Below, piece after piece: positions 26,374 through 27,759 of a stretch of DNA of 64,000 nt. Made by a program: the position numbers and the translations under genes. The stretch covers positions 1,240,001-1,304,000 of the forward strand of contig NZ_LNTU01000001.1 of the NCBI RefSeq assembly GCF_001558695.1, given 5' to 3'. The DNA comes from Paramesorhizobium deserti (GTDB lineage Bacteria > Pseudomonadota > Alphaproteobacteria > Rhizobiales > Rhizobiaceae). The notes below the pieces were generated by a model. That model searched no databases and was not told the origin of the DNA. It saw only the letters and a list, made by a program, of their open reading frames with translations. Numbering within the stretch: the stretch's first letter is position 1; each line of letters starts with the position of its first letter.

Positions 26374-26687
26374 ACTTCCCTCGCTCCGCGGCCCAAAGCC
26401 GCTCTACGCCCTTGAATTGTTGTCCAATAGAAGAAAATAGGCGAAGTTATGATGAGAAAAGACAAGTTGAGCGAACCGGCAAGCACCGGATCGGGGCCAA
26501 AAATGGCGGCATCCCCGAAAGCGCTTGACGCGGACAGCACCTCACACTATAGAAACGCGACTTTCCCATAAGGCCGCCTGTCCGAAGAATGCGCGCCCGC
26601 AGCCCCGCATCGTTGTAATGCGTTTATGCGAGAGAGTTTATCGGACACCGGGCCGGGGCCTGATAACAGAATTTGAAGGTGAGACCA
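26374..26687. other. Intergenic region DUF3108-rpmB
   Basis: Divergent promoter region of 314 bases. It contains the clear rpmB promoter at 26525-26553 and a 40-codon open frame (26449-26571) that overlaps that promoter and is probably not a gene. No repeat was recognised. Confidence 0.5.
26525..26553 (+). promoter_or_regulatory. Sigma-70 type promoter of rpmB
   Basis: TTGACG (26525-26530) and TATAGA (26548-26553) are separated by exactly 17 bases. Transcription would begin near 26560, leaving a leader of about 128 bases before rpmB. Confidence 0.7.
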
Positions 26688-26984
26688 ATGTCCCGCGCTT
26701 GTGAATTGACCGGAAAATCGGTCCAGTACGGCAACAATGTCAGCCACGCGAACAACAAGACGCGTCGCCGCTTCCTGCCGAATCTCTGCGATGTCACGCT
26801 GATGTCCGAAGCCCTCGGACAGAGCTACCGTCTGCGTGTTTCCGCTAACGCCCTGCGTTCGGTCGAGCATCGCGGCGGCCTCGACGCCTTCCTGACCAAG
26901 GCCGACGACAAGGAACTGTCGCAGCGCGCCCGTCTCCTGAAGCGTCAGATCGCCAAGAAGCTGGCTGAAGCCGCCGCCGCCTGA
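26688..26984 (+). CDS. rpmB: 50S ribosomal protein L28
   Basis: Structural protein of the large subunit. 98 residues, beginning [20 protein letters not shown] with the L28 core [15 protein letters not shown], and with the longer C-terminal tail typical of alphaproteobacteria ([16 protein letters not shown]). ATG 26688 is supported by AAGGTGAG upstream. It has its own promoter and a strong terminator. Confidence 0.97.
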
Positions 26985-27008
26985 TCGCCGGCTGTGACGG
27001 ATTAGACC

Positions 27009-27038
27009 GGGGCCGGCTTTTGTCGGCCCTTAGTTTTT
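27009..27038 (+). terminator. Rho-independent terminator of rpmB
   Basis: GGGCCG (27010-27015) pairs with CGGCCC (27024-27029) around an eight-base loop and is followed by TTAGTTTTT. Confidence 0.75.
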
Positions 27039-27047
27039 GGTTTAGCC

Positions 27048-27091
27048 GCATGATCCTATCCGGAAAGCCTGAAACTTTTCGGGATCGTGCT
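27048..27091. repeat. Palindromic repeat, family B
   Basis: A hairpin-forming element GCATGATCCTATCC...CTTTTCGGGATCGTGC. Other copies are at 45280-45323, 56097-56140 and degenerate ones at 45659-45700 and 61702-61728. This copy ends seven bases before the riboswitch candidate. Confidence 0.8.
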
Positions 27092-27097
27092 CTGGTG

Positions 27098-27126
27098 CTG
27101 GTTCCATCACCCAGGATAAAAAAATG
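27098..27126 (+). promoter_or_regulatory. preQ1-I type riboswitch candidate pairing with the start codon
   Basis: P1: CTGG (27098-27101) pairs with CCAG (27111-27114). The loop is TTCCATCAC, followed after P1 by GAT and six A residues. Loop bases CAT (27105-27107) can pair with ATG 27124-27126, making the P2 pseudoknot of class I preQ1 aptamers. GGTTC, ACCC and AAAAAA match the conserved segments of that class in the same order (compare B. subtilis queC leader). A ribosome site AGGA (27113-27116) overlaps the P1 3' strand. The downstream gene is a queuosine-precursor transporter, the expected target. Confidence 0.72.
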
Positions 27127-27759
27127 AGCGATATGCGTCCTCTCCTCCCCGCCATCCTTTCCATGTGCGCGATCGTCGCCGCATCGAATGTGCTCGTCCA
27201 GTATCCCTTCAACCATTTCGGTCTGCACGAAATACTGACATGGGGAGCGTTGACCTATCCCGTCGCTTTCTTCGTCAATGATCTGACCAATCGCCGCTTC
27301 GGTCCGGCCGCCGCCCGCAAGGTGGTCTATGCCGGTTTCGTGCTCGGGGTCATCATGTCGATCTGGCTCGCCACCCCCCGCATCGCCATTGCCTCCGGCA
27401 GCGCCTTTCTCCTGGCCCAGCTGATCGACATAACGGTGTTCGACCGCCTGCGCCGGCAGGAATGGTGGAAGGCGCCGTTCGCTGGAACCATGTTCGGCTC
27501 GGTTCTCGACACGGCGCTCTTCTTCTCTGTCGCCTTTGCCGCGCAATTTGCCTGGATCGATGCGATGACGGGCATGCCGGATGCGTCGCTCGCCTTCCCT
27601 GTGGCTTTTTTCGGCACGCAGATCCCGCTCTGGATGTCTCTCGCCCTTGGCGATTTCCTGGTGAAGACCGCCATGGGTATCCTTATGCTAGCTCCCTACG
27701 GAATGGTCCTCGCGATCTTCCACCCGGCTATTTATTCCGCCAGCCGGAACTCCAAATAG
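27124..27759 (+). CDS. Queuosine precursor transporter, VUT/YhhQ family
   Basis: Inner-membrane protein that takes up preQ0/preQ1 for queuosine modification of tRNA in organisms that salvage. 211 residues with about six hydrophobic segments; the family sequence YPVAFFVNDLTNRRFGPAAA (short VUT motif) and the Gly/Asp-rich GTMFGSVLDTALFFSVAF are present. Start 27124 is the codon inside the riboswitch; ATG 27133 is a weaker alternative. The last 28 bases overlap the convergent esterase gene. Confidence 0.9.
   Translation: MSDMRPLLPAILSMCAIVAASNVLVQYPFNHFGLHEILTWGALTYPVAFFVNDLTNRRFGPAAARKVVYAGFVLGVIMSIWLATPRIAIASGSAFLLAQLIDITVFDRLRRQEWWKAPFAGTMFGSVLDTALFFSVAFAAQFAWIDAMTGMPDASLAFPVAFFGTQIPLWMSLALGDFLVKTAMGILMLAPYGMVLAIFHPAIYSASRNSK

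Follow-up and report, generated by a model that had tools for sequence, protein, structure and literature searches.

Sequence comparison confirms positions 27098–27126 of the window, the whole 64,000-nucleotide stretch of DNA analysed here, as a putative preQ1 class I riboswitch-like pseudoknot upstream of the gene for a VUT/YhhQ transporter. The element very probably switches translation off in the manner of a preQ1 class I riboswitch, with the AUG start codon itself as part of the pseudoknot. The element, its gene, its spread among relatives and the covariation of its start-codon helix are directly established.

The element in the window and its gene

The segment reads CTGG TTCCATCAC CCAG GAT AAAAAA ATG, exactly the stem, loop, six A residues and ATG described in an earlier note on this DNA, and the loop triplet CAT (27105–27107) is, as that note had also said, complementary to the ATG. 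Positions are numbered as in the type III preQ1-I riboswitch of E. coli (PMC10622847, cited from excerpts throughout), and all features lie on the forward strand.

27098–27101, +: 5′ strand of P1, CUGG; its last G is G5 in type III numbering, the floor of the pocket (PMC10622847)
27102, +: U6, counterpart of L1, which in E. coli is a single base in contact with preQ1; invariant in 26/26 alignment rows
27103–27104, +: U7 and C8, counterparts of the E. coli base-triple positions (alignment, 296-genome parse and PMC10622847)
27105–27107, +: anti-start triplet C9-A10-U11, 5′ strand of P2; CAT in 296/296 parsed genomes
27108–27110, +: L2 and specificity base, with position 12 (variable), A13 and C14; C14 reads preQ1 in E. 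coli
27111–27114, +: 3′ strand of P1, CCAG, pairing with CUGG
27113–27116, +: AGGA, putative ribosome site, half inside P1 and 7 bases before the ATG
27115–27117, +: linker GAT, from the sequence
27118–27123, +: A-tract, L3, six A; the last is the equivalent of A27, a preQ1 contact in E. coli
27124–27126, +: AUG start codon, A28-U29-G30, 3′ strand of P2, complementary to the loop CAT
27127, +: base +4, an unpaired A in the window; it pairs with loop position 8 in relatives with G at position 7
27124–27759, +: VUT/YhhQ queuosine-precursor transporter gene, 211 aa (ORF and profile matches)
26688–26984, +: rpmB (ribosomal protein L28), conserved upstream neighbour (profile matches)
27009–27030, +: terminator-like hairpin after rpmB (1 found against 0.6 expected in shuffles)

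The reading frame at 27124–27759 matches Vut_1 with 83 bits (cut-off 27.2) and the TIGR00697 queuosine precursor transporter with 97.9 (cut-off 50.95), in agreement with the earlier assignment of the downstream gene as a VUT transporter. The element has the layout of an H-type preQ1 class I pseudoknot, with a P1 hairpin loop that pairs with an A-rich 3′ tail, and as is typical of the class it lies before a gene of queuosine synthesis or uptake, here VUT. Its 18-base core occurs once in the 64-kb window when up to three mismatches are allowed (0.12 expected).

The Rfam model RF00522, to which the earlier note had pointed, does match the element, yet with 14 bits it stays far under the gathering cut-off of 39 (E 4.6 on 601 bases); the genome-wide E of 9.87 falls in a range, E ≤10, where all 14 control genomes also match. 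At the validated yhhQ element of E. coli the same model gives nothing at E ≤10, so its score does not sort type III elements. Over 151 genomes of the window's family it matched three and passed its cut-off in none, and a separate covariance model (R2) was therefore built. Folding without the knot is likewise uninformative for the element, as the 41-mer folds no better than its shuffles (z 0.19) and 101 bases give z 0.70; 146 bases, with the rpmB terminator hairpin included, give z −3.09. A CUGGUG upstream in the window can also pair with the loop, giving a competing hairpin.

In many relatives (L001, L004, L019 and others) the terminator-like hairpin behind rpmB runs right up to the element, which is touched by its T-run. 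The VUT message would thus arise from read-through or from an unseen promoter; a sigma-70 scan of 26600–27200 gave no promoter match.

Relation to the type III riboswitch of E. coli yhhQ

Judged by sequence, the element is closest to the type III preQ1-I riboswitch in front of E. coli yhhQ (PMC10622847) and not to that of B. subtilis queC, with which the earlier note had compared it. The E. coli leader reads ATTGGG TTCCCTCAC CCCAAT GGTTAATC AAAAAGG, and its nine-base loop, UUCCCUCAC, has eight of nine bases in common with UUCCAUCAC of the window. The sole difference lies at position 10, which is C in E. coli and A in the window, and it is matched in the tail by a change of G29 to U29. This one two-sided change, from C10-G29 to A10-U29, turns the tail A-A-G-G into A-A-U-G, the start codon, so that the helix covering the AGG of the ribosome site in E. 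coli covers the AUG in the window. The P2 of E. coli consists of U11-A28, C10-G29 and C9-G30 (PMC10622847) and that of the window of U11-A, A10-U and C9-G. The two elements further have in common the gene family, the P1-loop-P1 layout, the A-tract and the register of the three-pair P2, and the comparison with E. coli and with the relatives described below supports the earlier proposal of a preQ1-I-like pseudoknot.

The pocket likewise appears to be retained. The E. coli structure has the triples U7-A27-preQ1 and C8-A28-U11, and changes at G5-C15, U6, C14 and one tail A lead to large losses of affinity, about 35,000-fold for U7C in wild-type numbering (equal to U6C); the element prefers preQ1 over preQ0 by 133-fold (PMC10622847). 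All of these bases needed for preQ1 in E. coli, namely G5-C15, U6, C14 and the tail A, are present in the window. The type III loop, which is short and pyrimidine-rich with UU after P1 and AC before the 3′ strand of P1, is also recognizable in UUCCAUCAC, as are the four to five conserved A residues before P2; the UU is absent from the relatives with G at position 7.

The two elements also differ in several respects. L3 spans 10 bases before U29 in the window compared to 13 before G29 in the leader of wild-type E. coli, the window's P1 has four pairs and, unlike that of E. coli, itself holds half of the AGGA, and the E. coli element adjoins tusA rather than rpmB. In the relatives with G7 a fourth P2 pair, absent from E. 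coli type III, is formed with the second codon. As P2 does not pair with the AAGG of the ribosome site, a stated feature of type III, but with the AUG, the element is classed from its sequence as a new preQ1-I variant beside type III rather than as a plain member of it.

With the type II preQ1-I riboswitches of B. subtilis queC and T. tengcongensis the element shares the class, the C that reads the ligand and the A-rich tail, while the loop differs; type II elements act on transcription termination or sequester no more of the ribosome site than its first bases, according to excerpts of a family review (PMC11625349). The merging of aptamer and expression platform into one pseudoknot is also common to the direct-occlusion pseudoknots such as SAM-II/V, for which the strand said to be built into the helix is the ribosome site rather than the start codon (PMC10907184, in excerpt).

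When the phylum was searched with a pattern open at positions 10 and 29, 71 of 398 genomes matched. Eleven genomes of the window's family join CAU with AUG, whereas CCU was joined with AGG at all 15 type-III-like loci read outside the class (L069–L083), with the start codon some bases downstream. P1 also differs two-sidedly between the AUG and AGG groups (G3-C17 to U-A and, mostly, U2-A18 to C-G), the comparison being one of two clades with few independent events. At least four scattered matches join the triplets in the opposite manner, CAU with AGG in G873 and G568 and CCU with AUG in G564 and G556, and these are taken as chance, the one inspected being that in G873 (L054), where P1 does not extend. 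Among the 30 loci shown, L055–L065 are of the AUG kind and L069–L083 of the AGG kind; L054 and L066–L068 were judged by eye to be chance matches without a type-III-like P1 and tail. The P2 of the E. coli kind was read by eye, and the mixed MAFFT alignment (A2), before which the stray pattern matches L025 and L044:1363 were dropped, misplaced some of the tail ends.

Spread and covariation within the family

A scan of named genomes yielded 28 loci that encode a VUT relative, and the element is present at 25 of them and absent at L023, L025 and L027. In an alignment of the 25 loci with the window, the 29 columns from CTGG to ATG comprise 26 invariant ones, two conserved to at least 90% and a single varying one, loop position 12, although the pattern that selected the rows fixed CTGG and CCAGGATAAAAAA and the unconditioned columns are only the loop and the TG of ATG. 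U6, C14 and the closing pair G5-C15 are invariant in 26/26 rows. Outside the element no column is invariant; the six preceding ones are at least 70% alike and T-rich, being in many rows the end of the rpmB terminator. The element is conserved in these VUT leaders, whose alignment the earlier note had proposed as a check. One of the scanned records (L020) is titled Bacillus subtilis strain SK6B4; its locus groups with Pseudochrobactrum and the record is probably mislabelled.

The R2 covariance model matched 19 of 397 genomes of the window's order, all 19 in the window's own family. Within the family it matched 217 of the 247 genomes searched, which belong to 109 genera, 98 of them with a match; searches of single genera gave 80/80 genomes in g30 and 57/57 in g48. 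The 217 matches were read individually in part, and one of them, L274 in G006, the sole match seen in its genus, is false. The named carriers are titled Phyllobacterium, Brucella, Ochrobactrum, Pseudochrobactrum, Falsochrobactrum and Paenochrobactrum, along with a few with another or no genus title. VUT is in frame with the paired AUG in 197 of the 201 genomes that have enough downstream sequence, and in a stricter set VUT follows and rpmB precedes the element at 140/140 loci, some of which share a genome. VUT was found in 12 of the 20 misses listed (there are 10 further misses), and among these 12 are three divergent elements (L376, L377 and L379) and one decayed copy (L383). The decayed copy, CTGGTTCCATTACCAAGATTAAGAATG, lies just before the VUT start at about 1387, in a genome of 1.5 Mb. 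Across 242 distinct elements, P1 is CCGG/CCGG in one and the A-tract has five to seven A, the A of AUG excluded, compared to six in the window.

For the loop and the start region, 296 genomes were parsed with a pattern in which P1, U6, C14, the A-tract and the TG are set and the triplet, positions 7–8 and base +4 are free; it failed at one of 307 loci (model matches and surrounding regions), the false L274. The sample is uneven, with g30 and g48 covered completely, and the same species may have entered it twice, under a name and a handle. The anti-start triplet is CAU in 296/296 genomes and hence cannot covary with AUG within the family; both CAU/AUG and P1 hardly vary there and those pairs carry no covariation. 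Base +4, in contrast, is not a conserved column in the model's alignment. In the elements with G7, position 8 is Watson-Crick complementary to base +4 in 189/189 genomes, as G-C in 175 (37 genera), C-G in 13 (9 genera) and A-U in one, whereas in those with U7 it is so in 0/107, position 8 being C and base +4 C in 47, A in 36, U in 24 and never G. Elements of one kind differ in the second amino acid (Leu, Gln, Arg, Pro or His with G8), so the protein does not explain the pairing of position 8 with +4. These sequences indicate that the pseudoknot helix can extend into the second codon by one base.

The pairing was also assessed by statistics and on a tree. In 26 distinct rows (A3) the pair 8/+4 is CG in seven, GC in five, AU in one and other in 13, and six of 500 shuffles reach its covariation score and share of paired cells; no slid register shows a two-sided change, and two of five measures, the pairs changed on both sides and the further pair types, are not above the shuffles. 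Mutual information over 280 genomes is dominated by phylogeny, with loop 7–8 as the top pair, and the best partner of +4 is loop position 8 (0.410), followed by position 7 (0.351). A quick tree was made from 138 VUT proteins with their first residues left off, and on it the loop kinds change at least 11 times, or 12 times in a second tree without L273, whose AUG frame is not VUT. The G7-C8 kind changes seven times, at least four of them on starred branches. In the second tree, for G7-C8 against G at +4 there are three independent pairs on starred branches (seven on all branches) and 3/3 agree, and for G8 against C at +4 there are two, of which on average 1.6 agree and none is opposed; two to three pairs are too few for a p below 0.05.

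Taken together, covariation of the start-codon helix is supported by the change of C10-G29 to A10-U29 relative to E. coli and, independently, by position 8 with base +4. The covariation claimed in the earlier note had one comparison as its basis, and the claim now has these two instead. Its placing of the start codon within the pseudoknot helix is in turn supported by the CAU in all 296 parsed genomes and by the covariation of position 8 with +4.

Ligand, mechanism and alternatives

The genomic context supports preQ1 as the ligand. The window genome has queC, queD, queE, queF and tgt, and RF00522 matches twice more, before queD-queE (L029 1501–1543, C1:373637; 31.6 bits, E 3.3e-4) and before queC (L030 1501–1540, C1:323391; 19.5 bits, E 0.395). 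Both are under the cut-off and by our reading have a type II look; since 14/14 control genomes matched at E ≤10, the match in the queC leader rests on its place. Between the first of these two matches and queD (L029 1549–1656) lies a 36-residue QueC-like stretch with 41.7% identity to the QueC of the genome (E 2.75e-5), apparently the remnant of an old queC.

By homology to the solved E. coli type III riboswitch we infer preQ1 as the ligand, the contacts of the pocket and the direction of regulation. P1 (CUGG/CCAG) would close the nine-base loop, and preQ1 would bind C14 atop the G5-C15 pair. With the ligand bound, the A-tract would dock in the P1 groove and C9-A10-U11 would pair with the A-U-G of the start codon, the A preceding the AUG contacting the ligand and the A of the AUG lying in the ceiling of the pocket. 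P1 would hold half of the AGGA ribosome site, and with AUG and AGGA not freely reachable by the 30S the transporter would be left unmade when preQ1 is plentiful. In the G7 kind the helix would be one pair longer, and the U7 contact and the free base 8 would be given up. The lack of G at +4 in the U7 kind (0/107) fits the idea that C8 stays free for its triple.

Three other readings bear on this mechanism. The same pseudoknot could bind preQ0, queuine or another 7-deazapurine, at least where the loop has G7, as such loops lack one or both of U7 and C8, the bases that form triples in the E. coli structure, and they are common (189 of 296 parsed genomes, a count made uneven by the two G7 genera searched in full, and 137 distinct elements with G8). 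The substrates of YhhQ also differ, since E. coli YhhQ acts on preQ0 (PMC5372724, in excerpt) and a Bartonella homologue can also take queuine (PMC11570991, in excerpt). However, U6, C14, G5-C15 and the A-tract, the features by which preQ1 is read in the class I structures set side by side in PMC10622847, are kept, the window's own loop has both U7 and C8, and the strong preference of the E. coli element for preQ1 over preQ0 speaks against another ligand, which we therefore regard as unlikely.

A pseudoknot that sets VUT translation without a ligand, or a protein site, for example for L28, is less probable still. The strong conservation of the primary sequence would suit it, and the presence of rpmB upstream at 140/140 loci tested, some from one genome, would suit a site for L28, but the E. 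coli relative lies beside tusA and binds preQ1 (PMC10622847), and the loop bases of the ligand pocket do not vary in any of the 26 rows. It is barely credible that the element is no more than a ribosome site and start region conserved in the ordinary way, in which CAT is complementary to ATG by chance. AGGA and A-rich spacers are frequent upstream of start codons; nevertheless, the loop 5′ of the ribosome site is conserved too, and position 8 follows +4 throughout the G7 genomes (189/189) despite differing second amino acids.

The start-codon off-switch for preQ1 thus being preferred, some divergent loci suggest that the occluded site may shift. In L270, L273, L377 and L379 the linker lacks AGGA and the paired AUG is out of the VUT frame, a start codon in the VUT frame follows 13 bases further on in 4/4 (L270 has additional ones at 7, 34 and 37), and AUGGA stands where the ribosome site could be. 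These sequences may reflect a return from start-codon to ribosome-site occlusion. L376 also lacks AGGA, and a GTG 15 bases further along shares the frame of its AUG.

A search of open-licence PMC texts found no preQ1 riboswitch described as having the start codon for a pseudoknot strand, and the 2014 type III sequence list might include AUG forms; the words "start codon" were not found in the excerpts of the 2024 preQ1 family review (PMC11625349). The family that carries the element in 98 of 109 genera shows none of 151 genomes above the cut-off of the Rfam model. The full picture, in which start-codon riboswitches occur throughout the family, the ligand lies under the A of the AUG, the helix dictates the first base of the second codon and lineages shift between hiding the AUG and the ribosome site, is probable, if less so than the off-switch itself. 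If true, the element would rank with the smallest gene switches in nature, about 30 bases holding aptamer, ribosome site and start codon, and many relatives would merge the first base of the second codon into the switch as well. A single two-sided base change can be enough to move occlusion from the ribosome site to the start codon, and uptake of queuosine precursors would be under preQ1 control in most sampled genera of the family (98/109 matched).
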